A stretch of DNA of 64,000 nucleotides. Source: Phytoactinopolyspora alkaliphila (GTDB lineage Bacteria > Actinomycetota > Actinomycetes > Jiangellales > Jiangellaceae). The notes beneath the pieces were generated by a model. It was not told where the DNA came from. It was given only the letters and a program-made list of their open reading frames with translations, and made no database searches. Position 1 is the first letter of the stretch. Each line of letters opens with the position of its first letter. The stretch is taken from positions 77,844 through 141,843 of the forward strand of contig NZ_JAAGOB010000012.1 of NCBI RefSeq assembly GCF_010550695.1, in the 5' to 3' direction. Below, piece after piece: positions 12,290 through 60,696 of this stretch. The position numbers were made by a program, and so were the translations under genes.

Positions 12290-12675
12290 GGATGTTCCCC
12301 TTGTGTCTGCTGGCGTTCTGGCCATCGCCCAGCCCGTCTCGAAAGCCGAGCCGTCCGGGTCGCGGGCGGCTTTGGCGCAGAAGACGCACCGTGGGCGATC
12401 TGGGTCGAGGCCGCGGCCTCCCACGGCGCTCACGGTCGGCAAACGCCCATGCGAGAAAGCGAAACCCCTCTGCCTTCCGAGGAAACCGGCATTTGCGAAT
12501 GCGGGTACCTAGAAGGCATTTCGTGCAGTTGGACTCTTTCGGAAAGCTCTTGCCCTGTCAAGATCTACGGCAGGTCGAGAAGGATCGGACCACGAGGCGT
12601 CGCGTACTGGACTCGTGCCGGTTACCCGGCCGTCGCTTGCGCCGCCGGTGGGCCGCCGCGCGCTAGCCTTCTCGT
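12290..12675. other. Gene-free gap between divergent genes
   Basis: These 386 bases separate the divergent beta-helix gene (minus) and the GNAT/acyl-CoA-synthetase gene (plus), so both promoters should lie here. Open frames crossing it have no codon-bias support and no recognisable motif. I could not pick out a convincing -35/-10 pair or an operator by eye. Confidence 0.5.
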
Positions 12676-44472: not shown

Positions 44473-46044
44473 TCAGGGTAGCCAGGGCCGCGGGTCGGTG
44501 TGCTGCCCGTTGAGGCGCACCTCGAAGTGCAGATGCGGACCCGTCGAATAGCCGGTGGATCCGATCTTCCCGATGACCTGGCCCTTCTCGACCTTCTGCC
44601 CGACGCTGACGCTGAGTCCACTCTGATGAGCGTAAAGCGTGGTCAGCCGGCGCCCTTCGAAATCACCGTGGTCGACGATCACCATGTTGCCGTAGGCGGT
44701 GTTGTATTTGGCTTCGATCACCGTTCCGGCGTCGGCGGCGTAGATGTTCCCGTCGCCGCGGCCGAAGTCGATGCCGGTGTGCATCTTGACGTAGCCGAGG
44801 ATGGGATGCAGCCTCGAGCCGTATTCCGAGGTCACTGCACCATTGCCCGGGCGGATGAAGTCTCCGGTGCCGTATCCGGGCCCGAAATCTTCCTCGGCCA
44901 GGCCGCCGAGATACTCGCCGACCGCGGTGGCCTCGTCGATCTGCTCCATGTACAGCTTGTAATCCTCGAGCTTGGCCTCCTCGGCCAGCTGGAGGGCGGT
45001 CTCGTACTCCTCTTGTTTCTCTTGCCGGTTGGTACGCGCCTTCTTTGCGCGGGCCTCGGCCTTCTCGGCGTCCGAGCGGGCCTCGGCGGCTTCCTGGGCG
45101 AGCTGCTCCTGCTCCTCGCGCTGGCCTTCCAGAACCGACAGTGAATTTCGCATGTCCGCTTGGTCGGCGGCCAGCCGGCCGAGTGCGGTGTCGCTTGCCC
45201 GGAGCAAGGTCCGCATGCCGACGTACCGGTTGCTGAGATCCTCGGGCGATTCGGCACCGAGCAGTACGCCGATCGTGGCGAGTCCGTTGTTCTGGTAGGC
45301 CTCTCGAACCACAGTCCCGAGGGCATCGCGTGCGCCGTCGGTTTGAGTGCGGATCGACTCGATCTCCCGCTGCGTGCGCTCGACGACCTGAATGGCGATC
45401 TTCAGCTCTTTGCGGGCGTCTTCGTCGGCTTCCTTGGCCGCCTCAGCCTCTTCCCGCGCCGCGTCGAGATCGGCGTCCGCGTCGTCGATCTGGGACAGGA
45501 TCTCGTACAGCAGACGTTGCGCTTCCGCCACCGCGACGGTCTGGGCGTCCAGCAGCGCGGCCTCGTACACCTCTTGGGGGTCCCGCCGGTCCTGGTCCTC
45601 CGGATCGGTCGACGGGTCCTGCGTGGACGGCGACGTGGGCTGCGGGGTGTCCTCGGCGTCCGGCTCGTCGCTGGGCTCGTCGGTCGGCTCGTCACTCGGC
45701 TCCGCGGTGGGATCGTCCGTCGGAGACGGCGTGGGCCTGGGCGTCTTGGTGGGTGACGGCGTAGGGCTTGGTGTCTTGGTAGGCGTCGGTGTCGAAGACG
45801 GTGTGCTGGTAGGCGTAGGCGTCTTCGTGGGCGACGGCGTACCGGTAGCCGTGGGGGACGGCGAGCTCGTGAGCGTGGCCGTGGGAGGCGGGCTGGTGGT
45901 CTGGGTAGGACTGGAGGAGGGCGGTGGCGAGTCCGTCGGCTGGGGTGTTACCCCGTGAACCTGGGCCGGCATCGCGAGAGCCGACAACACCAGGCCAGAG
46001 CTGGCCAAGGCCGCGGCAATGACGTCACGTAGAGGGCGCCGCAT
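44473..46044 (-). CDS. Secreted M23 (LytM) peptidoglycan peptidase with coiled coil and PT-rich linker
   Basis: A 523-residue exported cell-wall hydrolase. The signal peptide is about 1-35 (VIAAALASSGLVLSALAMPAQVHG). A long Pro/Thr/Ser linker (about 38-165) turns acidic at its end, then a coiled coil runs about 165-380 (for example AAREEAEAAKEADEDARKEL). The C-terminal LytM domain has zinc ligands in SRLHPILGYVKMHTGIDFG (His...Asp) and GPHLHFEV (HxH). Coiled coil plus LytM is the layout of EnvC/RipC-type enzymes that FtsEX controls during division. ATG 46044 is the start; the longer frame lacks a signal-like N-terminus. Confidence 0.9.
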   Translation of the reverse strand: MRRPLRDVIAAALASSGLVLSALAMPAQVHGVTPQPTDSPPPSSSPTQTTSPPPTATLTSSPSPTATGTPSPTKTPTPTSTPSSTPTPTKTPSPTPSPTKTPRPTPSPTDDPTAEPSDEPTDEPSDEPDAEDTPQPTSPSTQDPSTDPEDQDRRDPQEVYEAALLDAQTVAVAEAQRLLYEILSQIDDADADLDAAREEAEAAKEADEDARKELKIAIQVVERTQREIESIRTQTDGARDALGTVVREAYQNNGLATIGVLLGAESPEDLSNRYVGMRTLLRASDTALGRLAADQADMRNSLSVLEGQREEQEQLAQEAAEARSDAEKAEARAKKARTNRQEKQEEYETALQLAEEAKLEDYKLYMEQIDEATAVGEYLGGLAEEDFGPGYGTGDFIRPGNGAVTSEYGSRLHPILGYVKMHTGIDFGRGDGNIYAADAGTVIEAKYNTAYGNMVIVDHGDFEGRRLTTLYAHQSGLSVSVGQKVEKGQVIGKIGSTGYSTGPHLHFEVRLNGQHTDPRPWLP

Positions 46045-46254
46045 CAGAAAGTGTCTACTCCTTTCGGCCCGGTGCGAGGCCTTGTGGGCCGGAGGCGCCG
46101 GAATACCACGGACGCGAAGTATGTCCTCGTCATACCTAAACCCATTCCCCGTCATTGTGCGACCCGTAGCTGTGCATTATGTGGAAAACCACCACGCCAA
46201 ATAGTACAGATCGGACGGTTGGGGCTCACTCTACGCCGTGGATAGGCTGAGGAC

Positions 46255-47526: not shown

Positions 47527-48381
47527 GTGGATCTGCTGGGCCTGCTGGCCAACGGGGACCTTGCCGTCGAGGGGCGGCTCGTGGTCGCCTCGAACGTCAC
47601 TCTGCTCGGGCGGGTGAGTCACGGCGAGCAGCACGCCCGCTGCGTGTACAAGCCGACCGCGGGGGAGCGGCCGTTGTGGGATTTCCCTGACGCGACGCTC
47701 GCCAACCGCGAGGTGGCCGCGTATCTGGTGTCCGAGGCTGCCGGCTGGCACGTGGTTCCGCCGACCGTGCTGCGCGACGACGGCCCTATGGGGCCCGGCA
47801 TGTGTCAGGCATGGATCGAGCAAACGGAATCGCTCTCCGTGCTGGACAGCGCGGAGCTGGAGATCCCGCTGGTCGGCGCCACCGATACGCCGCCCTGGGT
47901 GGACGTCGTGCCCCCAGACCGGATACCGGCAGGCGCGCTGCCGATCCTGCAGGCGCTGGACGGTGACGGTTCCCCCGTCGTCCTCGTGCACGCCGACCAT
48001 CCGGGCTTGCGGGCGCTGGCCCTGTTCGACGTCGTCGTGAACAATGCCGACCGCAAAGGTGGACACATCCTCACTGGTGACCGGGAGATCGCCGAGCGGA
48101 TGGCCGGCGTCGTGGGCGTCGATCACGGCGTGTCGTTCCACGAGGAGCCCAAGCTGCGCACCGTGCTGTGGGGCTGGGCGGGCCAGCAGCTCGCCGACCA
48201 CGAACGGGCAGCGCTGGCCCGCCTCCGGCACAGCCTTGACGCGGAGCTGGGCGAGAGTCTCATGGCGTTGCTTGACGAGGGCGAGGTCGCCGCCCTGAAG
48301 GCACGGATTGCAGAATTGCTGCAGGTGGGAAGGATGCCTGAACCCCAAGGGCGGATGCCGGTGCCGTGGCCGGTCTTCTGA
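47527..48381 (+). CDS. SCO1664 family protein (kinase-fold-like)
   Basis: A 284-residue conserved actinobacterial protein (TIGR03843 type). Visible motifs are ASNVTLLGRV, ARCVYKPTAGERPLWDFP with a Lys that could bind ATP, FDVVVNNADRKGGHIL resembling a PI3/PI4-kinase-type catalytic loop, and GVDHGVSFHEE resembling the metal-binding Asp. The motifs suggest a phosphatidylinositol-kinase-like fold, but activity is unproven. GTG 47527 with GAAGG shortly upstream is the start; the frame beginning at 47440 overlaps DUF3090. It lies upstream of mshC. Confidence 0.85.
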   Translation: MDLLGLLANGDLAVEGRLVVASNVTLLGRVSHGEQHARCVYKPTAGERPLWDFPDATLANREVAAYLVSEAAGWHVVPPTVLRDDGPMGPGMCQAWIEQTESLSVLDSAELEIPLVGATDTPPWVDVVPPDRIPAGALPILQALDGDGSPVVLVHADHPGLRALALFDVVVNNADRKGGHILTGDREIAERMAGVVGVDHGVSFHEEPKLRTVLWGWAGQQLADHERAALARLRHSLDAELGESLMALLDEGEVAALKARIAELLQVGRMPEPQGRMPVPWPVF

Positions 48382-48400
48382 GCGATTAGGGTCTGAGGGT

Positions 48401-49636
48401 ATGCGTGCCTGGGCAGCTCCCGAACTACGTTCACTACCCGGCCGCGGCGTCGCCGTCCGGATCAGGGACACCGCGTCGGGTGAGACGAAGGCCGTCGGCG
48501 GAGCGCCGGGCGGCTCGGCATCGATGTACGTGTGCGGCATCACGCCCTACGACGCCACGCATCTGGGGCACGCGGCCACCTACGTCGCCTTCGACGTGCT
48601 CAATCGAGTTTGGCAGGATGCCGGCCTGACGGTGCGTTACGTGCAGAACGTGACCGACATCGACGACCCTCTCCTGGAGCGTGCCGAACGCGACGGGCGG
48701 AACTGGGCGGAGCTCGCCGAGGAGCAGACCGAGCTGTTCCGTGACGACATGGCGTGGCTGGGCGTCGTGCCGCCGTCGGAGTTCGTCAGCGCCGTCGATG
48801 CCATACCGTCCGTGCTCGAGCTCATCGGCAGGCTCAAGGACAGGTCCGCCGTGTACGACGTCGACGGTGACCTGTACTTCTCGGTGCGGTCCGATCCGCG
48901 GTTCGGAGAGGTGTCCGGACTCGACGCCGGGACGATGCGGGAGCTGTTCGCCGAACGCGGCGGCGACCCGGACCGGGCCGGCAAGCAGGACCCGCTGGAC
49001 TGCCTTCTGTGGCGGAGGGAGCGCCCGGGCGAGCCGTCGTGGCCGAGCCCGTACGGCCCTGGACGGCCTGGGTGGCACATCGAATGCACGGCGATCGTGT
49101 TGCGCCACCTCGACCGCGGCTCGGGCATCGACGTGCAGGCGGGCGGCAACGACCTGATCTTCCCGCATCACGAGATGTGCGCGTCTGAGGCCCACGTGGT
49201 CACCGGCCGCCCGTTCGCCCGCGTTTACGCTCACGCCGGGATGATCGGCTATGCGGGTGAGAAGATGTCGAAATCGCTCGGCAATCTCGTATTCGCCCAC
49301 AGCCTGCGTGAGGAGGGGGCGAACCCCGATGCGGTCCGGCTCGCGCTGTACGCCGACCACTACAGTGCCGACCGGGAGTGGAGCCCCGCGTTGCTGCGGG
49401 CGGCCGACGAGCGACTCCGGCGCTGGCGGGCGGCCATGGCGGCACCGTCGGGCGTCGACGGGCTCTTGGTGCTGTCCCGGATCCGGGAGCGGCTAGCTGA
49501 CAACTTGGATACGCCCGGAGCGCTTCAGGCGATCGACGCGTGGGCGGACGCGACTCTGGCTACCGGCGGCGACGACGACGCGGCTCCGGCCTTGATGCAC
49601 GCCGCGGCCGACACGTTGCTGGGTGTCCACGTGTGA
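48401..49636 (+). CDS. mshC: Mycothiol cysteine ligase MshC
   Basis: ATP-dependent ligase that joins L-cysteine to the amino group of glucosaminyl-inositol, a key mycothiol-synthesis step. 411 residues. It is a cysteinyl-tRNA-synthetase relative: a zinc Cys at residue 45 (MYVCGITPYDATHLGHA, which also holds the HIGH-like motif), zinc ligands in WHIECTAI and FPHHEM, and a KMSKS motif (EKMSKSLGN). The short C-terminal helical domain and lack of an anticodon-binding domain mark it as MshC rather than CysS. ATG 48401 is 19 bases after the previous stop. It indicates that the organism makes mycothiol. Confidence 0.95.
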   Translation: MRAWAAPELRSLPGRGVAVRIRDTASGETKAVGGAPGGSASMYVCGITPYDATHLGHAATYVAFDVLNRVWQDAGLTVRYVQNVTDIDDPLLERAERDGRNWAELAEEQTELFRDDMAWLGVVPPSEFVSAVDAIPSVLELIGRLKDRSAVYDVDGDLYFSVRSDPRFGEVSGLDAGTMRELFAERGGDPDRAGKQDPLDCLLWRRERPGEPSWPSPYGPGRPGWHIECTAIVLRHLDRGSGIDVQAGGNDLIFPHHEMCASEAHVVTGRPFARVYAHAGMIGYAGEKMSKSLGNLVFAHSLREEGANPDAVRLALYADHYSADREWSPALLRAADERLRRWRAAMAAPSGVDGLLVLSRIRERLADNLDTPGALQAIDAWADATLATGGDDDAAPALMHAAADTLLGVHV

Positions 49637-49770: not shown

Positions 49771-50697
49771 GTGTCCGAGCAGGCGCAGTCCACGTCGCAT
49801 ACGTCCGCCCAGGTCTCCGAGACCGGCACCGCACGCGTGAAGCGGGGAATGGCCGAGATGCTCAAGGGCGGTGTGATCATGGACGTGGTCACACCGGAGC
49901 AGGCCAAGATCGCCGAGGACGCCGGCGCGGTCGCCGTGATGGCGCTGGAGCGAGTGCCAGCGGACATCAGGGCGCAGGGCGGTGTCGCCCGGATGAGCGA
50001 CCCTGACCTGATCGACGGCATCGTCAACACCGTGTCCATTCCGGTGATGGCGAAGGCCCGGATCGGCCACTTCGTCGAGGCCCAGGTGCTGCAGAGCCTG
50101 GGTGTGGACTACGTCGACGAGTCCGAGGTGCTCACCCCGGCCGACTACGCCAATCACATCGACAAGTGGCAGTTCACCGTTCCGTTCGTGTGCGGTGCCA
50201 CCAACCTCGGAGAGGCGTTGCGGCGGATCACCGAAGGCGCGGCGATGATCCGCTCCAAGGGTGAGGCCGGAACCGGCGACGTCTCCAACGCCACTACCCA
50301 CATGCGCCAGATCCGGGCGCAGATCCGGCAGCTGCAGTCGCTGCCCAAGGACGAGCTGTTCGTGGCGGCGAAGGAGCTTCAGGCTCCGTACGAGCTCGTT
50401 CGCGAGGTCGCCGAACTCGGCAAGCTGCCGGTCGTGCTGTTCACCGCTGGCGGGATCGCCACGCCGGCGGACGCCGCGATGATGATGCAGCTCGGCGCGG
50501 AGGGTGTCTTCGTCGGCTCGGGAATCTTCAAGTCCGGTGATCCGGCCCGGCGCGCCGAGGCGATCGTGAAGGCCACCACGTTCTACGACGACCCGGACGT
50601 GCTCGCCAAGGTGTCGCGCGGGCTGGGCGAGGCGATGGTCGGCATCAACGTCGAAGAGGTGCCGGAACCCCACCGGCTGGCCGAGCGCGGCTGGTAA
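49771..50697 (+). CDS. pdxS: Pyridoxal 5'-phosphate synthase subunit PdxS
   Basis: A 308-residue TIM-barrel synthase that makes PLP from ribose 5-phosphate, glyceraldehyde 3-phosphate and ammonia delivered by PdxT. The active-site Lys residues are in [15 protein letters not shown] and [11 protein letters not shown], and [29 protein letters not shown] is typical. GTG 49771 (VSEQAQ) is chosen, with AGAGG at 49755-49759; the N-terminal 25 residues are a Ser/Thr-rich extension seen in other actinobacteria. A -10-like TAGACT at 49714-49719 could be its promoter. Its partner pdxT lies 1.6 kb away. Confidence 0.96.
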
Positions 50698-50712
50698 GCG
50701 TCGCGCCGACGT

Positions 50713-51249
50713 ATGAACGCCCCCGACCCGCTGGCCGTTTTCACGGAGTGGGAACAGGATCGCGACGGCGCCTGGGTGCGCAACGCCGCGCGGGCGATCG
50801 TCGTCGACGCGCGGGGGCGAACTCTCCTGCTCGAGGGTTTCGACGTCGATGAGCCGGAGCGGCGCTGGTGGTTCACGCCCGGTGGCGGACTTCAGCCCGG
50901 CGAGCCCGAGCGTGTGGCGGCGGCGCGGGAGCTGTTCGAGGAGAGCGGCTTAGTCGTGAGCGCCGACGAGCTGGTCGGACCGGTCGCCGCGCGGACGGCG
51001 GAGTTCACGTATTTCGGGCGGCGTTGCCGGCAACGCGAGGTGCTCTATTACGCCCAGGTCCAGGAAGCGCCGGGCGTTACCACGGACGGCTGGACCGACG
51101 TCGAGCGAGCGTCCGTCACGCAGGCGCGGTGGTGGAATGTGAACGAGCTTGCCGCCAGCGCGGCTGTGGTCTATCCATCAGCGCTTCCCCAGCTGGTAAC
51201 CCAGTTGCGGGCGGAGGGATGGGACGGCCGCACGCAGGTGATCGACTGA
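50713..51249 (+). CDS. Nudix hydrolase
   Basis: A 178-residue hydrolase of nucleoside-diphosphate-linked compounds. The Nudix box is complete (GGGLQPGEPERVAAARELFEESGL: G, E, REUXEE, G). The sequence before it (IVVDARGRTLLLEGFDVDEPERRWWFTPGG) is the usual beta sheet lead-in. ATG 50713 lies 15 bases after pdxS, so the two may be co-transcribed. The substrate is unknown. It is one of two genes inserted between pdxS and pdxT. Confidence 0.9.
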   Translation: MNAPDPLAVFTEWEQDRDGAWVRNAARAIVVDARGRTLLLEGFDVDEPERRWWFTPGGGLQPGEPERVAAARELFEESGLVVSADELVGPVAARTAEFTYFGRRCRQREVLYYAQVQEAPGVTTDGWTDVERASVTQARWWNVNELAASAAVVYPSALPQLVTQLRAEGWDGRTQVID

Positions 51250-51283
51250 TCCGCTCTCGGTATCGTGAGACGCGATGCACTGG

Positions 51284-52075
51284 TCACCAGAGCGTCCATC
51301 CTCCGTCGACCACCACCTCCGAGCCGGTGACGAAACTCGCCTCGTTTGACAGAAGGAATGCGACCGTCGAGGCGACCTCGTCGGGCTCGCCCATCCGGCC
51401 CATCGGTGTGGCCTCGCCGAACCCCTGGATCATCTCATCGTCGAGTTCAAGGCTGTCGACCTTGATCATTCCCGGTGAGACGGTGTTGACCCGGATACCC
51501 AAGGACGCGGCGGCCACCGCCAGCTCACGGGACATCTGCCGGACAGCGCCCTTCGAGGTCGCGTAGGCGACGCGCCCGGGGCCGAACGGCGTCTCGGTGG
51601 AGATCCTGCCGGGATAGAACGCCGGGTTGAGCGCGAGCATGCCGTACACCGAGGCGATGTTGACGATACTGCCGCCGCCGGACTCGCTCATCCGCTTGAT
51701 GGCGTCGAACGACAAGAACGCGGTCGACTCCACGTTGAGCGCCAGGTTGGCTCGCCATTGCTCCAGGTCCTGCGCGAAAAGCGGCGCGATGTAGGTGTCT
51801 CCGACATTGTTGACCAAGCCGGTCATCCGGTGCGTCTGGGCGTCCACGGCCGCCCAGATGGTTTTGCGGCCTTCCTCCGTCGCGACGGCGGCGCTCACGG
51901 TGAACACTGTGCCGTTCTCGTCGTCGATCAGTTCGGCGGTCTCATCGAGCATCGACTGGCGCCGGCCGGCGATCAGGCACGCGCGCCCCGAGCGGGCCAA
52001 CTTGCGCGCGATGGACCGGCCGATCCCCGAGCCGCCACCGGTGACCAGGACGAGCGAGGTTTCATCAGCAGTCAT
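51284..52075 (-). CDS. Short-chain dehydrogenase/reductase (SDR)
   Basis: A 263-residue NAD(P)-dependent oxidoreductase. The Rossmann motif TGGGSGIGRSIA near residue 13, the LVNNVGD loop, and the catalytic Ser-Tyr-Lys (NIASVYGM... YATSKGA) are visible. The C-terminal VTGSEVVVDGG is typical of classical SDRs. ATG 52075 is the start; the longer frame lacks the normal N-terminus. It lies convergent to the Nudix gene. A 244-base gap separates it from the divergent pdxT gene; no obvious operator was seen there. Confidence 0.9.
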   Translation of the reverse strand: MTADETSLVLVTGGGSGIGRSIARKLARSGRACLIAGRRQSMLDETAELIDDENGTVFTVSAAVATEEGRKTIWAAVDAQTHRMTGLVNNVGDTYIAPLFAQDLEQWRANLALNVESTAFLSFDAIKRMSESGGGSIVNIASVYGMLALNPAFYPGRISTETPFGPGRVAYATSKGAVRQMSRELAVAAASLGIRVNTVSPGMIKVDSLELDDEMIQGFGEATPMGRMGEPDEVASTVAFLLSNEASFVTGSEVVVDGGWTLW

Positions 52076-52319
52076 GGCTAACCGTCCAGACACGTCGGTG
52101 GACCCGGCAAAGCTAATGAAACATACATTTCGATTACCCGGAGCTTCGCGCCCACCCGGCCGGGTCACAACGCCTTCGGTGTGAACCCGTCACCCGGAGC
52201 GGCCGGTGCGCGGAATTCCCGGCCCGGCGACTACCGTTGAACCGGGTTGGCACACACCAAAGGTGGAGGCGGCACGTCGCACACGACGGCGTCGTCCCGT
52301 GGATCGGAGATCAGTACAC

Positions 52320-52994
52320 ATGGGGAACGGACCGACCGTCGGGGTCCTGGCCTTGCAGGGCGACGTTCGCGAACACCGGGGCATCCTGGAGTCGCTCGGG
52401 GCACAGACGCGCGCCGTGCGTACCGCCGCCGAACTCGGAGCGGTCGACGGGCTCGTCATACCTGGCGGCGAGTCGACCACCATGTGGCGCCTGGCGCGCA
52501 CCTTCGGCCTGCTCGAACCTCTGCGCAAACACATCCAGTCCGGGCTGCCAGCCTACGGCTCATGCGCCGGCATGATCATGCTCGCGGACCGGATCCGGGA
52601 CGGCGTCGCAGGTCAGGAAACCATCGGAGGCCTCGACATCACCGTCCGGCGCAACGCCTTCGGACGCCAGATCGACTCCTTCGAAGGCGAACTCGACTTC
52701 CCGGCCATCGGGGACCCAGCACTCCGGGCGGTGTTCATCCGCGCACCGTGGGTCGAGGAAGTCGGTCCCGGCGTCGAGATCCTCGCCCGGGTGCGGGCCG
52801 GAACCAGCACCCCTGTCACGCCGGAGGCGAGCGTCTCGGCGGACCGTTTTCCGGCCTCGCCGGAGGCGAGCACCTCGGCCGGTAGAATCGTCGCCGTACG
52901 AGCTGGAGGGTTGCTCGCCACGTCGTTCCACCCCGAGCTCACCGCTGATGCGCGCATCCACGCGTACTTCCTCGAGATCATCAAGGAGGCCTAG
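52320..52994 (+). CDS. pdxT: PLP synthase glutaminase subunit PdxT
   Basis: A 224-residue class I glutamine amidotransferase that supplies ammonia to PdxS. Key residues are the GGESTT motif, catalytic Cys in [10 protein letters not shown], and His-Glu in TSFHPEL. The oxyanion region is normal. Between the VRAG strand and IVAVRAGG there is an insertion of about 25 residues holding two similar stretches (PEASVSADR and PEASTSAGR), encoded by a 39-base imperfect repeat (about 52821-52885). ATG 52320 is the start. yebC follows after 4 bases, a conserved actinobacterial order. Confidence 0.95.
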
Positions 52995-52998
52995 ACTG

Positions 52999-53760
52999 AT
53001 GTCCGGCCACTCCAAGTGGGCGACCACCAAGCACAAGAAGGCAGTCGTCGACGCCAGGCGAGGCAAACTCTTCGCCAAGCTGATCAAGAACATCGAGGTG
53101 GCGGCCCGGACGGGCGGGGGAGACCCGGCCGCGAACCCGACGTTGTACGACGCGATCCAGAAGGCCAAGAAGTCTTCGGTCCCCAACGACAACATCGACC
53201 GGGCCGTCAAGCGCGGCTCCGGCGCCGAGGACGGCGGAGCCGACTACCAGACCATCATGTACGAAGGCTACGGGCCCAATGGCGTGGCGGTCCTCGTGGA
53301 GTGCCTCACCGACAACCGCAATCGTGCGGCTTCCGAGGTCCGTATCGCCATGACCCGCAACGGCGGATCGATGGCCGACCCGGGCTCCGTGTCGTATCTG
53401 TTCGATCGCAAGGGCGTCGTCGTCGTTCCCCGGCAGCAAGGTGAGCGAGAGCTCACGGAGGACGAACTTCTCGAGGTGGTGCTCGACGCCGGCGCCGAGG
53501 AGGTCGAGGACCTGGGCGAGGCGTTCGAGATCCGGTCCGAGGCCAGTGAGCTCGTCGACGTCCGCACCGCCATCCAGAAGGCGGGCCTGGACTACGAATC
53601 CGCGGAGTCCTCGTTCATCCCGTCCGTCAGCGTTCCGCTCGACGAGGACGGCGCGAAGAAGATCTTCCGCCTGATCGAAACGCTCGAAGACAGTGACGAC
53701 GTCCAGAACGTGTTCGCCAACTTCGACGTCTCCGACGAGATCATGGAAGCGGTCGGCTGA
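52999..53760 (+). CDS. yebC: YebC/PmpR-family protein
   Basis: A 253-residue protein of the TACO1/YebC family, which includes DNA-binding regulators and translation factors that relieve ribosome stalling on proline stretches. The N-terminus is [53 protein letters not shown] and [27 protein letters not shown] are canonical. Its position upstream of ruvC is conserved in actinobacteria, but here an iron-uptake cluster of about 7 kb lies between yebC and ruvC. Confidence 0.96.
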
Positions 53761-53762
53761 GC

Positions 53763-54824
53763 TTGACCCAGCTGATGGCCACCGCGGGTGTGCAGGTGGC
53801 CGGCGTCACCAAGTCCTTCGGTGACGTCGAGGTCCTGCACGGCGTGTCGATGACCGTGCCTGCCGGCGGGACGCTCGCTCTGCTCGGCCCCAGCGGCTGC
53901 GGCAAGACCACACTGCTACGCATCATCGCCGGGCTGGAACAGGCCGACGCTGGGACCGTGACGGTCGGCCACGCCGTGCTCACCGACGGCCGGCGCATGG
54001 TCCCTCCGGAGCGCCGCCACGTCGGGATGGTGTTCCAGGACTGGGCATTGTTCCCGCACCTCAGCGTCGCCGCGAACGTGGCCTATGGGCTCCGGAGACT
54101 GCCCGGTGAAGAAGCGCGTCGCCGGGTCGCCGACGCACTCGCGATGGTTGGCCTGAGCGCCCTCGCGGACCGCGCTCCGGAGACGTTGTCCGGAGGGCAG
54201 CAGCAGCGGATCGCGCTCGCCCGGGCCATCGCCCCGCGCCCGGCGGTGCTTCTCCTGGACGAGCCTTTCTCCAACCTCGACGCCGCGTTGCGCGGCCAGG
54301 TGCGGACCGAGGTTCACCAGCTGCTCACGAAGCTGGGCGTCACCACCATGTTCGTCACCCACGACCAGGAGGAGGCGTTCGTCCTGGGCGACACGGTGGC
54401 GGTCGTCCGGGATGGCGCCGTCGTCCAGCAGGCTCCTCCTACGGAGGTCTACGCGCGGCCCGCGGATGCATGGGTGGCCCGCTTCGTCGGCGACGCGAAT
54501 CTCGTACCGGGGCATGCCTCTGGTCTCACCGCGTCGACGGCGCTGGGAATCGTGCCGCTAGACGCGGAGCGATCCGGACCGGTGGAGGTGCTCATCCGGC
54601 CCGAGTCACTCGCGCTGAGCCTCGATACCGACGGCTCTGCCCGGGTGGAGCTGGTCGAGTTCTACGGCCACGACACCGTGTCGCTCGTCCGCGTCGGCGA
54701 CGAGGTCTTGCGCGTGCGGACGCCGGGGGCGCCCCTCGCGCACCGCGACGAGCGGGTCAGGCTCACATACAGCGGTCCGTCCGCCGCCGTCGCCTATGTG
54801 CGCCGGCCAGCAGCCGCTCAGTAG
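53763..54824 (+). CDS. fbpC: Ferric-iron ABC transporter ATPase (FbpC-like)
   Basis: A 353-residue ABC ATPase of the iron/spermidine group. Walker A GPSGCGKTT, Q-loop FQDWALFPHLSV, signature LSGGQQQR, Walker B VLLLDEPFSNLD and switch His in VTHDQEEA are intact; a C-terminal TOBE domain (about 235-345) follows. The start is TTG 53763, two bases after yebC; ATG 53775 is an alternative. The FbpA/FbpB-like partners are 3-6 kb away on the opposite strand, so this ATPase belongs to the same uptake system but a different transcription unit, probably driven by the yebC promoter. Confidence 0.85.
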   Translation: MTQLMATAGVQVAGVTKSFGDVEVLHGVSMTVPAGGTLALLGPSGCGKTTLLRIIAGLEQADAGTVTVGHAVLTDGRRMVPPERRHVGMVFQDWALFPHLSVAANVAYGLRRLPGEEARRRVADALAMVGLSALADRAPETLSGGQQQRIALARAIAPRPAVLLLDEPFSNLDAALRGQVRTEVHQLLTKLGVTTMFVTHDQEEAFVLGDTVAVVRDGAVVQQAPPTEVYARPADAWVARFVGDANLVPGHASGLTASTALGIVPLDAERSGPVEVLIRPESLALSLDTDGSARVELVEFYGHDTVSLVRVGDEVLRVRTPGAPLAHRDERVRLTYSGPSAAVAYVRRPAAAQ

Positions 54825-54848: not shown

Positions 54849-55286
54849 TCAGCGGCCGGGAACCCAGAGCTTGGAGGCTGGTGAGGGTTGCTGGGACTGA
54901 GCGGGTTGCGCCGCCGCGCCGGTTGCCGTGGCCGGGGGAGCGGGCGGCCGCGGCAGGTCGTTCTCCTCTGGCGCGCCCCGCTGCGCAACCGCCTGCTCGC
55001 CCTGGACCTGGGCCATCCGCAGCTGACCGAGAACCTGATCGAACTGCTGGGCCTGCTGAGCAGGCAGGTACTGACGGGCATGATCGAGCATGAGCGCGCT
55101 CAGGTCGATCATGAGCCGGGCGTCGTTCCGGCCGATCTTGGCCTGCGCGGCGGTCAGGACGCCGCTCATGGTCTCCAGCACTATGCGGTCCGCAGGAACC
55201 GAGCGGAGCTGGGCCAAGTACTCGCGATACTCGTTCTCGGACGGCTCAGCCGCCTGCTCTCCCCGCGTGGTCGATTCGTCGCTCAC
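54849..55286 (-). CDS. DUF1844 family protein
   Basis: A 145-residue acidic protein. The central ARLMIDLSALMLDHARQYLPAQQAQQFDQVLGQLRMA is a helical hairpin typical of DUF1844. The C-terminal third is low-complexity Pro/Ala/Gln. A GTG start is at 55286. The function is unknown. It is convergent with the FbpC-like gene and lies 84 bases downstream of the adenylation fusion. Confidence 0.8.
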   Translation of the reverse strand: MSDESTTRGEQAAEPSENEYREYLAQLRSVPADRIVLETMSGVLTAAQAKIGRNDARLMIDLSALMLDHARQYLPAQQAQQFDQVLGQLRMAQVQGEQAVAQRGAPEENDLPRPPAPPATATGAAAQPAQSQQPSPASKLWVPGR

Positions 55287-55370: not shown

Positions 55371-57875
55371 TCAGCGCATCAGGCGACGCTGGACAGCCCT
55401 GACCACGAGCCACGCCACGGCCCCGGCCACCAGGGAGGCCACGACGGCCAGGCCCCGATCGACGCCGACGAGGTGGGGATAGACCTGCCAGTGGATCAGA
55501 TAGATGTACAGGGAGCTGCTTGCCAGGAGACCGGCCAGCCGGCTGGCTAGAGCGGGCGACGGGACGCTGGCCGTCCACAGCAGGAGCATCAGCCCGCCGA
55601 TCATCAGAGCTTCCCGCGACGGATTGCCGAAGAAGCCCGGCACCGTAGCGACGACGACGGCTGTGAGCAGCAGGCGTTGCCACACGCGCGTGGCGCGCGC
55701 CATCGCCCATCCGAGCGCGAACAGCCACAGTGCCGGCAGCATATGGGGCACTCCGAGCCCGACCACTTCGAACCTGGTGAGGAGCCCGGCGGCCACCAAG
55801 CCGAGGGCGAACCCGAACGGGAATCGCCGCTCGAGCCGGTCGGCCCACGGAATCGACAGGAGTGCGGCGAGACCGAGCAGTATGTACACCAGGATCTCGA
55901 CGAACCAGAAGTGCCAGCGGCTGTCCCAGGTGGGGGAGCCGAGGAACCCGTTGAGCAGGGCGATGTTGGCGATGCCGTACGTACCGGACACGACGACGAC
56001 GGCGGCGATCCACACCATGCTCGGCACGGCGATCCGCGCGATGCTGCCCAGCTGCTGTCGCAGCCGGACGAGACGTCCTGCCGACGTGAGCCGGAAACGC
56101 GCGAAGTTGAAGCCGGCCACCGCGAGGAGGACATGAGCACCGCCGAGCACGCTGAACAGGCCGGCATGTGTACCGACGATCGCGACGATAGCCGCGGCAC
56201 GCAGGAGGACGCTGGTCTCGGCGGTGCGCCCGCCGAACAGCCGGCGCCGAGGGCTGGGCACCAGGTCCCGGATCGGAGTGGTGTGCCAGTTCGCCGGCAC
56301 CTGACCGAGGAGGTGTTCCAGACGGACCGACATCTCGACATAGGACAAGGAGTCTCCGCCCAGCTCGACGAACGTGTCGTCCTCGGTCGCGTCGGGCCGG
56401 TTCAGAAGCTCCGCGAACAGATCCCGAAGGCGGGCCGGATCCCCGGCAGGTGCCGTGGCCACGGCGGGATCCGCCGGCCGACGCTCGGAGAGCGCAAGCA
56501 CGGCCTGGTAGTCCGGCTTGCCGGTGGACAAGCGCGGGATTTCGACGACGGTGCGGACGTCGACGGCATGCCCCGGAAGCCCACACCGTTCCATGACGAA
56601 CCGCCAGATTTCGTCGGCATCGTGCCCACCCTCCACGGCGACGGCGAGACGCCCGTCCGTTCCTGCACAACAGGAGATCAGCCCGCGCCCCGCGAGAACC
56701 GCCTCCAGCTGCTGAAGGTCCACCCGGAGGCCGGCGACCTTGACGAACCTGGCCCGGCGGCCGACGATCTCGTACAGTCCGGCGTCGGTCAGACGGGCGA
56801 GGTCCCCGGTACGCAGCGACGTGACGTTCCGGCCGAGGCTCAAGTCCGCGGGCGTGTCCGCGTAGCCGAGCATGACGTTCGGTCCGTCGTAGACGAGCTC
56901 TCCGACACCGGGCGGGTCATCGGCCCGTCTCTCCAGGGAGAACGAGCCTCCGGGGATGGCCACACCGACGGTATGCGGGTGCGACGCCGCGAGGTCCGGC
57001 GGCAGATAGGCCATCCGGGCGGTCGCCTCGGTCTGGCCGTACATGACGAACAGGTCCCAGCCGCGCTGCTGGCCGAGCTGTGCATAGCCGCGTACCCGCT
57101 CCGCGTCCAGCCGGCCTCCCGCCTGGGTGATGTAGCGCAAACCGGGCAGTTCCATGCTCGCGAAGTCCACCCGGTCGAGGAGATCGAACGTGTGCGGCAC
57201 TCCGGCGAACGACGTTCCGGCGTGTGCCCGGAAGAGGTCCCAGAAGCACGCGTCCACTACCGACAGTTCGGTGAGGATGAGGCCGGCGCCGACGGCCAGA
57301 TGGCTGTGGACGACGGACAGGCCGTAGCAATAATGCATCGGCAGTGTCGTAGCGGAGCGATCGGACGCCCGGACACCGAGATAGCCGGCGATCGCCTCGG
57401 CGTTGGACTGGAGATTCTCGTGCGACAGCCGCACCAGCTTGGGCGAGCCGGTCGATCCGGACGTGCTCATCAGCAGCGCGAGGTCCGGATGCAGATCATG
57501 GGTGGAGCCTGGGCGCCGCTCATCGGGCTGCCATGCCCCGCCGGCCGGGCTGAGAACCACGTCGGGGTCGTAAGCGTCCGCGAGCGAGTCCGCGTGGCCC
57601 GGCGGCACGAGCAGCGCGACGTGCCCGGCCCGGAGCGTGCCCAGGTACCAGACAAGAGACTCCAGGTCGTTCGACGCCGCGATCAGCACCAGCCGGCGGG
57701 TGTCGCCCAGCTGTCGTGCCGCCGCGTCCACCCGCGCGGCCAGCTCACGGTAGGACAACTCGAGCCCGTCCGTGGCGACGGCGAGCCGGTCTCCGTGTAC
57801 GTCGAGGCGCGCGGCGAACCGCACGGCCGGCGCCGGCGTGGCCGGTTCCCGTTCAAGGGGGAGTGGCAGGGTCAC
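55371..57875 (-). CDS. Adenylation-PCP-acyltransferase-3 membrane fusion protein
   Basis: An 834-residue protein with three parts. The adenylation domain (1 to about 460) has the core motifs LLMSTSGSTGSPK (A3), MYGQTEATA (A5), TGDLARLTDAGLYEIVGR (A7/A8) and catalytic Lys453 in STGKPDY. A carrier-protein domain follows, about 475-545, with Ser509 in the LGGDSL phosphopantetheine site. The C-terminal part (about 555-834) is a ten-TM acyltransferase-3-like domain starting LRAAAIVAIVGTH, the catalytic His motif of that family. The protein should activate a carboxylic acid, hold it as a thioester and pass it to a membrane or exported acceptor. The acid and acceptor are unknown; the A domain lacks the FDxS motif of amino-acid-specific NRPS domains. 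ATG 57875 overlaps the permease stop by 4 bases, so it is co-expressed with iron uptake. Confidence 0.85.
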   Translation of the reverse strand: MTLPLPLEREPATPAPAVRFAARLDVHGDRLAVATDGLELSYRELAARVDAAARQLGDTRRLVLIAASNDLESLVWYLGTLRAGHVALLVPPGHADSLADAYDPDVVLSPAGGAWQPDERRPGSTHDLHPDLALLMSTSGSTGSPKLVRLSHENLQSNAEAIAGYLGVRASDRSATTLPMHYCYGLSVVHSHLAVGAGLILTELSVVDACFWDLFRAHAGTSFAGVPHTFDLLDRVDFASMELPGLRYITQAGGRLDAERVRGYAQLGQQRGWDLFVMYGQTEATARMAYLPPDLAASHPHTVGVAIPGGSFSLERRADDPPGVGELVYDGPNVMLGYADTPADLSLGRNVTSLRTGDLARLTDAGLYEIVGRRARFVKVAGLRVDLQQLEAVLAGRGLISCCAGTDGRLAVAVEGGHDADEIWRFVMERCGLPGHAVDVRTVVEIPRLSTGKPDYQAVLALSERRPADPAVATAPAGDPARLRDLFAELLNRPDATEDDTFVELGGDSLSYVEMSVRLEHLLGQVPANWHTTPIRDLVPSPRRRLFGGRTAETSVLLRAAAIVAIVGTHAGLFSVLGGAHVLLAVAGFNFARFRLTSAGRLVRLRQQLGSIARIAVPSMVWIAAVVVVSGTYGIANIALLNGFLGSPTWDSRWHFWFVEILVYILLGLAALLSIPWADRLERRFPFGFALGLVAAGLLTRFEVVGLGVPHMLPALWLFALGWAMARATRVWQRLLLTAVVVATVPGFFGNPSREALMIGGLMLLLWTASVPSPALASRLAGLLASSSLYIYLIHWQVYPHLVGVDRGLAVVASLVAGAVAWLVVRAVQRRLMR

Positions 57876-59554
57876 GCTCGGCCCCCGCCCGCGGCGCCGA
57901 CGGGGACGAGAACCGGTGCCCGGTCCACCGGTGTGGCCGGGGGCAACTCAACGAGGTCCGAGCGCCGTGACCGGGTCTGCCGTCGCGGGCGCGCATCGTC
58001 ACGCAGGGCCAGCACGGCGGTGGGGACGCTGGCGAGCACGACCAGCGTCAGCGCGGGCAGGGCGGCCGCGCCGTAGAAGTTCTCCGACGTGGTGCTCCAC
58101 ACCTGAGTGGCGAGCGTGGAGAAGCCCGTGGGCGCGAGCATGAGCGTAGCCGGCAACTCCTTCATGACGGTCAGGAAGACCAGGGCGGCGCCGGTGAGCA
58201 CGCCGGAGCGGGAGAGCGGCATGACCACGGAGAAGAACGTCCGGGCCGGCCCGTACCCGAGTGTGCGGGACGCCTCCTCCCACGCCGGGTTGACCTGCTG
58301 GACAGAGCTCTTCATGGGCCCGAGCGCAAGCGGGAGAAACATCACGACGTATGCCACCACCAGCATCGTGATCGTCTGATACACCGACGGCACGTGCCGG
58401 GCACCGAACGAGACCAGGCCCAGGGCCACCACCACTCCGGGGAGCGCGTAGCCGATCCAGCCGAAGCCCTCGAGCACACGCCCCGTGCGAGTGCGGTGCC
58501 GGGTGGCCAGCATAGTGACCGGCCAGGCGGCGACCACGACGGCGACAGCCGCCAGCGCCGATGCCTGCAGGCTGTTCGCTACCAGCTCGCCGGCCAGGCG
58601 CACCGGCTCGCCCGTGCGCAGCCAGCGAATCAGCCACAGCACGATCACGCCGACGGGAAGTGCAGCGCCCAGCGCGAAGACCGCGCATCCGGCGGCGAAG
58701 GCCGGCCAACGCCACCGGCCGAGCGGCTGGGACCGCGGCCGGCGTGAGCCCGCATGCAGATGTGTGGTGGCTGCGCGCCGGGCCCGCAGTTCTGGCACCA
58801 GCACCACCACCGCGAGGGCCACCAGCAGCAGCGCCAGCACGGAAGCGGCGGATCTGTCGATCACGTTGTAGCGAACATAGATGACCCTGGTGAACGCGTC
58901 GAAGCGCAGCATCGAAACCGCGCCGAAGTCGCTGAGCGCGTACAGCGCCACGAGCAACCCGCCGGAGACCAGGGCCGGACGCAAGGCTGGCACCACCACC
59001 CGCCGGAACGTCCCGAAGGCGTTCTGGCCGAGCGTACGGCTGGCTTCCTCGGCGCTCGGGTCCAGGCGGCGGAGAGTGGCCCGCACAGTCAAGAACACGT
59101 AGGGATAGGAAATGATCGTCAGGACGAACCACGCGCCCCAGTAACCGTAGATCGACGGCAGCCGGTCCACGCCGAGCGGCTGCAGCCAGCCCTGAAGCAG
59201 GCCACGCGGACCGAGGAACGACACGTAGGCGTATGCGGCGATGTACGAGGGCAACGCGAGCGGCAGCGCCAGGAGGACGGTCAGTACGCCGCGTGCCGGC
59301 ACGTCGGTGCGGATGGTCAGCCAGGCCAGTGGCGCTCCGATCAGGATTGCCCCCACTGTCACCCCGGCCATCAGTCCCACGGTGTTCACCAGGACCTCGA
59401 TGGTGCGAGGCTCGGCGAGCACCTCCCACGCCCGTTCGAGTCCGCTCTCGGTGGCGCGGATGATCAGGTAGGCAGGCGGCAGTAGGGCCAGGATCGCGAC
59501 TGCGGCGGCCGCTACAGTGAGCGCCCGGCCGGAGAACCGCCGCGTACTGGCCAC
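57872..59554 (-). CDS. fbpB: Ferric-iron ABC transporter permease (FbpB-like, two fused halves)
   Basis: A 560-residue permease with about 12 TM helices. Each half carries an ATPase-contact EAA loop: AEEASRTLGQNAFGTFRRVVVPALRPA near residue 170, and WEEASRTLGYGPARTFFSVVMPLSRSG near residue 425. The fused double-permease layout is typical of FbpB/SfuB ferric-iron systems. ATG 59554 lies just after the binding-protein gene stop (gap of 3 bases), and its stop overlaps the adenylation fusion by 4 bases. All three genes form one operon. The cognate ATPase is the fbpC-like gene at 53763. Confidence 0.92.
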   Translation of the reverse strand: MASTRRFSGRALTVAAAAVAILALLPPAYLIIRATESGLERAWEVLAEPRTIEVLVNTVGLMAGVTVGAILIGAPLAWLTIRTDVPARGVLTVLLALPLALPSYIAAYAYVSFLGPRGLLQGWLQPLGVDRLPSIYGYWGAWFVLTIISYPYVFLTVRATLRRLDPSAEEASRTLGQNAFGTFRRVVVPALRPALVSGGLLVALYALSDFGAVSMLRFDAFTRVIYVRYNVIDRSAASVLALLLVALAVVVLVPELRARRAATTHLHAGSRRPRSQPLGRWRWPAFAAGCAVFALGAALPVGVIVLWLIRWLRTGEPVRLAGELVANSLQASALAAVAVVVAAWPVTMLATRHRTRTGRVLEGFGWIGYALPGVVVALGLVSFGARHVPSVYQTITMLVVAYVVMFLPLALGPMKSSVQQVNPAWEEASRTLGYGPARTFFSVVMPLSRSGVLTGAALVFLTVMKELPATLMLAPTGFSTLATQVWSTTSENFYGAAALPALTLVVLASVPTAVLALRDDARPRRQTRSRRSDLVELPPATPVDRAPVLVPVGAAGGGRA

Positions 59555-59557
59555 GTT

Positions 59558-60556
59558 CTACAAGACCCCGGTCTCTTGAAGCAGCTGCAGTGTTCCTTCG
59601 AGGTCCTCGAGCTCGGAGAGGTCGATGGCGGGCGGGTCGAGAGACTCAAGCGTCGGCATGCCATCCGGCGGAGCCATCCCCTTGACCAGAGGGAACTCCC
59701 AGGTCTCGGTCGCGAAGTACTGCTGTCCGGCTTCGCTGAGCAAGTACTCCACGAACTCCGTGGCCGCCTCGGTGTTCTCCGACGTGGCCAGGATGCCCGC
59801 GCCGGCGACGTTGACCAGCGCACCCGGGTCGCCGTCACCGTAGAACTTGTTGGCCGCCGGGAGATCCGGCGCCTCCGCCAGTTTCGGGTAGAGGTAGTAG
59901 TGGTTCACCAAGCCCGCCTCGATCTCACCGGCAGCCACCGCGTCGACCACGGCGATGTTGTTCTCGTATGCCTGCGTGCCGTTGTCCCGCATGGCCTCGA
60001 GCCATTCCGCCGTGGCCTCCTCGCCTTCGAGCACGCGCAACGCGGTGACGAACGCCTGGAAGCTAGCGTTGGGCGGCGCCCAGCCGATCCGGCCCTGCCA
60101 GGCCGGGTCGGTGAACTCCGCCACCGTGTCCGGCAGGTCGTCCTCATCGAGCACGTCCGTGTTGTAGACCACGACCCGTGCCCGGCCGGAGAGCCCGACC
60201 CAGTGGTCCTCGGGAGAGCGGTAGGTGGCGGCCACCCGCTCGAGCAGGCCGGCGGGCAGGTCGGCGAGCAGGCCGGCGGCGGACAGCGCGCCCAGCGCTC
60301 CGGCATCTTGCCCGAAGAACACGTCGGCGGGCGAGTTCTGCCCTTCCTCCAGGATCTGTGCGGCCATTTCGGCGGTGCTGCCGTAACGCACGTCTACCGT
60401 CAGCCCGGACGCGTCCTCGAACTGCTGGATGACAGGCCCCACGAGGCTCTCGCTGCGCCCGGAATAGACCGTCAGATCGGCGTCGTCGCCGGACCCGCAT
60501 GCAGCGAGGAGGAGGACAAGAAGGGCCGCGCCGGCAGCCTTGATGCGAACCCGCAA
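59558..60556 (-). CDS. fbpA: Ferric-iron-binding lipoprotein (FbpA-like)
   Basis: A 332-residue extracytoplasmic Fe3+ receptor. Lipobox LLAAC gives a lipidated Cys near residue 19. LTVYSGRSESLVGPVIQQFEDASG and YGSTAEMAAQI match FbpA proteins; the two adjacent iron-ligating Tyr residues are seen in GLVNHYYLYPKL. GAGILATSEN and AGQQYFATETWEFPLV are family typical. The start is TTG 60556: GGAGG (60565-60569) lies 8 bases before it and the hydrophobic signal begins just after (RVRIKAAGAALLVLLLAAC). Two iron-box-like palindromes lie about 90-140 bases upstream. It is first in the operon. Confidence 0.9.
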   Translation of the reverse strand: MRVRIKAAGAALLVLLLAACGSGDDADLTVYSGRSESLVGPVIQQFEDASGLTVDVRYGSTAEMAAQILEEGQNSPADVFFGQDAGALGALSAAGLLADLPAGLLERVAATYRSPEDHWVGLSGRARVVVYNTDVLDEDDLPDTVAEFTDPAWQGRIGWAPPNASFQAFVTALRVLEGEEATAEWLEAMRDNGTQAYENNIAVVDAVAAGEIEAGLVNHYYLYPKLAEAPDLPAANKFYGDGDPGALVNVAGAGILATSENTEAATEFVEYLLSEAGQQYFATETWEFPLVKGMAPPDGMPTLESLDPPAIDLSELEDLEGTLQLLQETGVL

Positions 60557-60647: not shown

Positions 60648-60666
60648 TGAGGCAAGGCTTACTTTA
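60648..60666. promoter_or_regulatory. DtxR/IdeR-type iron box 1
   Basis: The 19-base element matches the IdeR/DtxR consensus (TTAGGTTAGGCTAACCTAA) at 13 of 19 positions by eye, including AGG, AGGCT and AC in register. It lies about 90 bases upstream of the FbpA-like start. DtxR/IdeR-type proteins repress promoters when iron is sufficient. Confidence 0.6.
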
Positions 60667-60677
60667 ACTAGTGCAAG

Positions 60678-60696
60678 TGAGGTTTGCCAAACCTGA
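60678..60696. promoter_or_regulatory. DtxR/IdeR-type iron box 2
   Basis: The element matches the IdeR/DtxR consensus at 15 of 19 positions by eye and contains a perfect 15-base palindrome (AGGTTTG-C-CAAACCT, 60680-60694). Its centre is 30 bases from that of box 1, about three helical turns. The two boxes together are strong evidence that the FbpA-FbpB-acyltransferase operon is iron-regulated. Confidence 0.7.

Follow-up and report, generated by a model that had tools for sequence, protein, structure and literature searches.

What would lead a bacterium to place an enzyme that activates an acid, tethers it and appears to pass it across a membrane, all in one polypeptide, in the same operon as a ferric-iron importer? 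This question is raised by a 64,000-nucleotide stretch of the Phytoactinopolyspora alkaliphila genome (contig NZ_JAAGOB010000012.1, positions 77,844 to 141,843 of the forward strand; hereafter the window, in whose coordinates positions are given), which encodes an 834-residue protein composed of an adenylation (A) domain, a peptidyl carrier protein (PCP) domain and a membrane domain of the acyltransferase-3 (AT3) or transmembrane acyltransferase (TmAT) type. Our answer, to which we give roughly an even chance of being right, is that the protein is an iron-starvation acyltransferase that makes, outside the cytoplasm, a ligand holding Fe3+ for import by FbpABC.

A three-domain enzyme in a single chain

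The gene and its parts are as follows.

55371..57875, minus strand: gene of the A-PCP-AT3 (adenylation-carrier-TmAT) protein, 834 aa, GTG start
56481..57839, minus strand: adenylation (ANL) domain, residues 13-465; from Pfam, model alignment and conservation
56517-56519, minus strand: codon of Lys453 in the A domain; from conservation
56256..56438, minus strand: carrier (PCP) domain, residues 480-540; from PF00550 and conservation
56349-56351, minus strand: codon of Ser509, within the GGDSL of the PCP; invariant in 50 homologues
55374..56234, minus strand: TmAT/AT3-like membrane domain, residues 548-834; from PF01757 family matches, fold model and conservation
56199-56201, minus strand: codon of Arg559 in the AT3 part
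56166-56168, minus strand: codon of His570

The initial annotation had recognized this open reading frame without giving its strand; the frame was confirmed and lies on the minus strand. Pfam finds only three domains in the protein, in the order AMP-binding (E 5.9e-42), PP-binding (1.4e-8) and Acyl_transf_3 (2.4e-5). All core motifs of ANL enzymes (TSGSTG.PK, YG.TE, TGD and the A10 lysine) are present in the A domain, and the carrier domain, which contains GGxS with the attachment serine, scores 35 bits against the PF00550 cut-off of 20.8. Lys453, Ser509, His570 and Arg559, the last two forming an R-x10-H motif in transmembrane helix 1 (TMH1), are invariant in 50/50 aligned homologues. The three domains, their order and the catalytic residues Lys453, Ser509 and His570 that the initial annotation described are therefore borne out, and the domain content supports its suggestion that activation, tethering and membrane transfer may take place in one chain.

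Because the AT3 score of the window protein is weak (24 bits for the whole protein and 28.4 bits for the AT3 part scored alone, both under the curated Pfam cut-off of 31), we also examined the PF01757 matches of its relatives and an AlphaFold2 model. PF01757 is matched by 48 of the 50 family members at E 0.01 or better, with a best value of 3e-14. The model of residues 548-834 (predicted local distance difference test score, pLDDT, 92.5; predicted template-modelling score, pTM, 0.89) contains 10 helices and aligns over 255 residues to HGSNAT, as solved by cryo-EM, with a Z of 13.9 (VIA-align), compared with 8.6 for GWT1 and 5.2 for the best unrelated chain; for OafB, a Z of 13.2 to HGSNAT has been published (PMC12423673). 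Foldseek alone returned nothing significant for this model (best match HGSNAT, prob 0.63), and a search of PDB sequences with the AT3 profile gave no match. In a full-length model (pLDDT 86.6), the A domain aligns to ANL ligases with Z values of 33-36, and VinN (26%) and HitB (24%) are among its structural matches of highest identity. Thus, the structure modelling proposed in the initial annotation recovered the TmAT fold, and on the family matches and the predicted HGSNAT-like fold the assignment of the third domain to the TmAT/AT3 type is secure, despite the sub-cut-off score of the window protein.

The family is widespread and accompanies FbpA

Full-length orthologues with 44-71% identity occur in 16 of 60 relatives, showing that the architecture is not a chance product. 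The search for its order and spread that the initial annotation had recommended found full-length relatives in 45 of 297 sampled Actinomycetes genomes, representing 19 of 114 genera, and relatives are present in other classes of the phylum too. Every open frame in the class sample covers all three domains (847 aa or more); the phylum sample includes two shorter frames, one of which starts within 1 kb of a contig end.

The distribution of the enzyme follows that of FbpA, the ferric-binding protein of the transporter. When FbpA homologues were scored in the same 297 genomes (E at most 1e-30), one was found in 45/45 enzyme-bearing genomes versus 38/252 enzyme-free ones (Fisher p 1.3e-30), with zero exceptions in which the enzyme occurs without FbpA. 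At the genus level, FbpA is present in 19/19 enzyme-bearing versus 23/95 enzyme-free genera (p 2e-10).

A scan of GTDB-representative genomes yielded 296 stretches encoding relatives. The best 80, which were kept, come from Jiangella, Phytoactinopolyspora, Arthrobacter, Streptomyces, Micromonospora, Salinispora, Frankia, Kineococcus, Kocuria and Aeromicrobium, with Thermoleophilia, among others, also represented. Plasmid records, from which the spread outside Actinomycetota was exclusively drawn, add Rhodococcus and Mycolicibacterium, rhizobia at about 35% identity and more distant Rhodobacterales; the alphaproteobacterial relatives are likewise single-chain fusions. The plant-associated Rhodococcus fascians D188 has a plasmid with one annotated relative. 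Another, on a Paracoccus zhejiangensis plasmid (locus L165, 1738-8194), is very divergent, with a tree branch of more than 4 changes per column and no AT3 match in Pfam; it lies near genes for an encapsulin shell protein and a DyP peroxidase. The deposited annotation of relatives is almost always merely "AMP-binding protein", which explains why the family has been missed by siderophore and surface-modification searches, and the enzyme was not seen to reach the cut-off of any NCBIfam model. The idea of a possibly unique surface-modifying enzyme thus gives way to a widespread family, and the genomic setting, missing at first, ties this family to ferric-iron transport and regulation.

The enzyme gene adjoins a ferric-iron transporter

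Four further genes of the window surround the enzyme gene.

59558..60556, minus strand: FbpA-type ferric-iron-binding lipoprotein (lipobox LAAC, NHYY motif)
57872..59554, minus strand: ferric-iron-type ATP-binding cassette (ABC) permease, 560 aa; the last 4 bases of its gene are the first 4 of the A-PCP-AT3 gene
53763..54824, plus strand: ATPase subunit of the same ferric-iron transporter; its gene converges with the operon
54849..55286, minus strand: 145-aa downstream protein with weak DUF1844 similarity, below the cut-off

The lipoprotein, permease and A-PCP-AT3 genes follow one another in this order, with a 3-base gap and then the 4-base overlap, and form one operon. The lipoprotein belongs to the FbpA family, matching PDB 7w3w (E 1.4e-88) with the NHYY motif aligned; a longer frame of the same gene starts at 60655. 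The NCBIfam names that would make the transporter a 2-aminoethylphosphonate or thiamine importer fall far below cut-off, and the FbpA match was preferred.

In a clustering of neighbours across about 85 contexts, the three transporter subunits were the only genes common to 11-12 actinobacterial genera, every other cluster being limited to four groups at most. The complete transporter adjoins the enzyme in 13/16, 32/80 (including partial loci with a substrate-binding protein, SBP) and 16/20 contexts, in co-directional, divergent and convergent arrangements. Transporter presence was taken from tblastn, because a simple gene caller assigns the wrong strand to some genes where loci are GC-rich. The adjacent SBPs fall into two subclasses; all 38 retain the iron tyrosine pair (YY), and 35 have a lipoprotein-like cysteine near the N-terminus. 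On the enzyme tree, the subclass of the adjacent FbpA switches at least three times, once within the family of the window organism, on starred branches. Linkage is kept through these switches and has therefore outlived replacement of the transporter.

Other neighbours vary. The 145-aa protein stands beside the enzyme in this genus only. In six Arthrobacter loci (e.g. L042, 6071-8343), divergent homologues of EfeO (imelysin) and EfeB (DyP peroxidase) adjoin the enzyme gene. The window also contains, before the transporter, genes resembling those for a mycothiol cysteine ligase, PdxS, PdxT and YebC (48308-49636 and 49771-53760), which are followed by RuvC, RuvA and RuvB in an order partly common within the genus, and an M23 peptidase gene (44473-46155, minus strand; PF01551) whose product has a long Pro/Thr/Ser-rich N-terminal stretch.

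Predicted iron-control sites precede the gene in two phyla

Three sites lie upstream of the lipoprotein gene.

60661..60690, minus strand: promoter-like site of the SBP-permease-A-PCP-AT3 operon, TTGGCA-18-TAAAGT; consensus match only
60648..60666: iron-box-like site TGAGGCAAGGCTTACTTTA, 3 mismatches to the DtxR/IdeR consensus; overlaps the predicted -10
60678..60696: second, weaker iron-box-like site TGAGGTTTGCCAAACCTGA, 4 mismatches; overlaps the predicted -35

Repressors of the DtxR/IdeR/DmdR family recognize a 19-bp iron box with the consensus TWAGGTWAGSCTWACCTWA. The two window sites, which are weak and precede the lipoprotein gene, are suggestive but taken alone are no proof of iron control. 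Across the family, a match to TWAGGTWAGSCTWACCTWA with at most 3 mismatches occurs within 200 bp upstream of the enzyme gene in 62/80 loci, versus 0/860 control upstream regions from the same loci. Among the positive loci are those of Arthrobacter, Salinispora and most Micromonospora, in which the transporter genes lie elsewhere. In genomes with a distant transporter, the transporter operon is complete and is itself preceded by an iron-box-like site with 2-4 mismatches in 7/7 examined.

In rhizobia, the corresponding repressor is RirA, whose motif, the IRO box, is TGA-N9-TCA (PMC6386902, PMC8822346). Within a rhizobial-type set of seven relatives, including one from a record labelled Roseateles (unverified), an IRO box was found within 120 bp upstream in 6/7, versus 5/85 control genes (p 4e-6), a count somewhat inflated by the overlap of TGA-N9-TCA with the promoter element TTGAC. 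With DtxR-type boxes in Actinomycetota and IRO boxes in rhizobia, the enzyme gene would thus, as far as motifs can tell, be under two different iron repressors in two phyla. The rhizobial gene is often plasmid-borne and solitary behind its IRO box (loci L159, L161, L166, L167 and others, e.g. Rhizobium etli CFN 42 p42e).

A conserved substrate pocket and an altered donor site

The pocket of the A domain was read from the alignment.

C183, Y184, S187, G225, T250, A252, M278, A286, R287 and K453, minus strand: A-pocket residues

The resulting code, C-Y-S-G/A-T-A-M-A-R-K, is nearly invariant among the 50 aligned members. Y184, S187, A252, M278, A286, R287 and K453 are the same in all 50 and are kept in the aligned alphaproteobacterial relatives. 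Position 235 (PheA numbering) is Cys in 45, Ser in three and Val in two of the 50, but never Asp. We therefore ruled out an A domain of the alpha-amino-acid type, and the predicted substrate is unlikely to be an ordinary alpha-amino acid. The aryl-acid A domain of DhbE has an N235/Y236 pattern. The HYCYGLS stretch of the enzyme is unlike it, which disfavours an aryl-acid domain for 2,3-dihydroxybenzoate or salicylate. One conserved pocket argues for one substrate, and the invariant Arg at position 331 (R287), together with its polar neighbours, suggests that this substrate has a second acidic or hydroxyl group. Our guess is a small, polar carboxylic acid that is either hydroxylated or di-acidic. 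Across genera, the enzyme is not accompanied by any biosynthetic gene, from which we would guess that acid and acceptor are both ordinary metabolites. Because the enzyme occurs in both Gram-positive and Gram-negative bacteria, teichoic acid is unlikely to be the general acceptor.

The membrane domain differs from canonical AT3 proteins at the site where the donor would bind. The Asp of the TMH1 DxxR motif is replaced by V, I or A in 50/50 members, and the first Arg of the TMH3 RxxR motif by S, G, A or T, also in 50/50; 44/50 retain the second Arg of that motif. Two canonical AT3s encoded by the P. alkaliphila genome have both of the residues that all 50 members lack. The cytosolic acyl-CoA site of TmAT enzymes is where the Asp and Arg of TMH1 and the Arg of TMH3 are located (PMC12423673, PMC9833829). 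Their partial loss here is consistent with a donor devoid of the nucleotide part of CoA, namely the acyl-phosphopantetheine of the adjoining PCP. We infer that Ser509 is loaded, that acyl-PCP is the donor and that transfer is outward; the earlier suggestion that free acyl-CoA need not be the donor is strengthened by the two CoA-associated residues lost.

The P. alkaliphila genome (5.5 Mb, 99.98% complete) encodes one phosphopantetheinyl transferase, of the AcpS type, and no Sfp-type enzyme was detected in it. It encodes only two PP-binding proteins, the enzyme itself and the presumed fatty-acid acyl carrier protein. The PCP of the enzyme may be a natural AcpS client.

A proposed role in ferric-iron acquisition

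Its tie to FbpA leads us to propose that the enzyme makes an extracytoplasmic Fe3+ ligand, a statement about the product that in our estimate could go either way; that the product binds Fe3+ is a guess. In the proposed sequence of events, low iron would cause a DtxR/IdeR/DmdR-type repressor in Actinomycetota, or RirA in rhizobia, to leave the promoter. The A domain would then adenylate, at the expense of ATP, a carboxylic acid that is small and polar and probably either hydroxylated or di-acidic, and the acid would be loaded onto the phosphopantetheine arm at Ser509. The acyl-arm, instead of acyl-CoA, would enter the TmAT pore from the cytoplasm, and the Arg559/His570 site would acylate an acceptor located on the outer side. 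The resulting product, either released or held at the cell surface, would bind Fe3+, which the FbpA lipoprotein would take up for import by the permease and ATPase. Of this scheme, sequence and models show the domains and their fold, the conserved catalytic residues, the operon, the iron boxes and the co-occurrence with FbpA.

Several observations weigh against this proposal. FbpA is found without the enzyme in 38 of the 252 enzyme-free genomes, so FbpABC is generally independent of it, and shared ancestry weakens the co-occurrence p-values. Only one of 11 alphaproteobacterial contexts read has an adjacent iron transporter, that of Pararhizobium, where the enzyme gene lies beside an Fe(3+) ABC operon of the FutA type. 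The pocket residues were put on PheA numbering by motif, not from a solved complex. With an AcpS-type but no Sfp-type transferase, loading of the PCP is not assured. Finally, the P. alkaliphila genome encodes two siderophore synthetases of the IucA/IucC type (contig C23, 1-16000), so that in its own genome the enzyme would be an additional iron route. Membership of a siderophore nonribosomal peptide synthetase (NRPS) cluster was ruled out, there being no NRPS nearby and only the two PP-binding proteins in the genome.

Among the alternatives, the enzyme might remodel the envelope under iron starvation, acylating a lipid, glycan or peptidoglycan and so altering surface charge or permeability, with FbpABC merely co-regulated. 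AT3 proteins mostly acylate surface glycans (PMC9558356), and the gene is often solitary in Arthrobacter, Micromonospora and rhizobia, as this explanation would predict. We nevertheless consider it unlikely, because the presence of FbpA in 45/45 genomes and a linkage that survives transporter exchange favour direct partnership over mere co-regulation.

It is quite improbable that the acyl group is added, during or after export, to a siderophore made elsewhere in the cell. The IucA/IucC synthetases, which have an iron-box-like site with 3 mismatches nearby (at 12645), could supply such a molecule, and AT3 enzymes are known to acylate natural products (PMC9558356). However, FbpA-type transporters take in Fe3+ rather than whole siderophores, the enzyme lies outside siderophore clusters in every context read, and a single A pocket is conserved over two phyla whose siderophores differ.

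We regard as very doubtful the possibility that the TmAT domain still uses acyl-CoA, with A-PCP acting apart or feeding another partner. Known AT3 proteins take acyl-CoA (PMC9558356), and Arg559 and His570 of the AT3 are kept here, whereas the TMH1 Asp and first TMH3 Arg are lost in 50/50, none of the complete members in the class sample or of the alphaproteobacterial relatives has given up the fusion, and the own genome offers no other carrier partner, having one other PP-binding protein. That the acyl group is put on the iron-binding lipoprotein or another transporter part, to activate or anchor it, would agree with the obligate FbpA co-occurrence, the operon structure and the N-terminal cysteine of 35/38 adjacent SBPs, but it is highly improbable given at least two interchangeable FbpA subclasses and a FutA type in Pararhizobium, which leave no one acceptor residue evident.

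If the proposed Fe3+ ligand is real, the enzyme would define an undescribed iron-regulated class of Fe3+ acquisition, present in two phyla, in which a TmAT fed by its own carrier with an ATP-activated common metabolite provides a minimal ligand for FbpABC without NRPS, NRPS-independent siderophore synthetase or acyl-CoA; we rate the chance of this broader claim as somewhat below even. It is common for FbpABC-type Fe3+ importers to have no obvious partner that would deliver iron to them. The enzyme is a direct candidate for the missing step, delivery of Fe3+ to FbpA in bacteria without transferrin receptors, a candidacy based on its FbpA-only occurrence in our sample and on iron-control sites in two phyla. 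If true, a TmAT enzyme fed by a covalent carrier and not by CoA would provide a clean test case for transmembrane acyl transfer.

Comparison with known systems

The transporter side is familiar. The SBP, permease and ATPase next to the enzyme are members of the FbpABC/FutABC family, with the tyrosine pair kept; however, an adenylation-acyltransferase partner of FbpABC operons was not found in the open-licence literature searched. EfeUOB resembles the system in that EfeO/EfeB-type genes are the divergent neighbours in the six Arthrobacter loci, but such an enzyme as a part of EfeUOB was likewise not found in the literature searched.

The Dlt system (DltA, DltC, DltB and DltD), to which the initial annotation compared the enzyme, holds only as an analogy in outline, since it too combines adenylation, a carrier and cross-membrane transfer without acyl-CoA. 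The comparison fails for the membrane part: Dlt uses four separate proteins, with DltB of the MBOAT family, D-Ala as substrate and no iron link, whereas here the membrane part is a TmAT domain within one chain. Amino acids are the substrates of Pls-type enzymes, which polymerize them with tandem condensation-like domains. The homopoly(amino acid) synthetases Pls, PosA and PDAP are thus a precedent for one-chain adenylation-carrier-membrane enzymes, but the present enzyme differs in having neither a condensation-like domain nor Asp235 and in using a TmAT as its membrane part. PosA is described as a poly-amino-acid synthetase in PMC10522769. Stand-alone ANL enzymes (VinN, HitB and the TIGR03098 acyl ligase) share the A-domain fold and core motifs, but not the fusion to PCP and TmAT or the conserved pocket code, which is the enzyme's own.

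The closest relatives of the membrane domain are the AT3/TmAT proteins (OafB, OatA and HGSNAT; PF01757 and its clan), with which it shares the 10-helix fold, R-x10-H in TMH1, a conserved W..E after TMH3 and Y..H near the C-terminal helices. It is unlike them in having its own donor factory in the chain and in missing the TMH1 Asp and first RxxR Arg in 50/50 members, and the PF01757 score of the window protein is below the curated cut-off. The only fusions given in AT3 reviews are those with SGNH and racemase domains (PMC9558356, PMC9833829), and the open-licence papers searched gave no description of the A-PCP-AT3 combination, an in-chain donor or an iron partnership. Thus, the single domains and the TmAT fold are already known; what is new against the literature searched is how they are combined, the iron partnership and the donor that probably lies in the chain itself.

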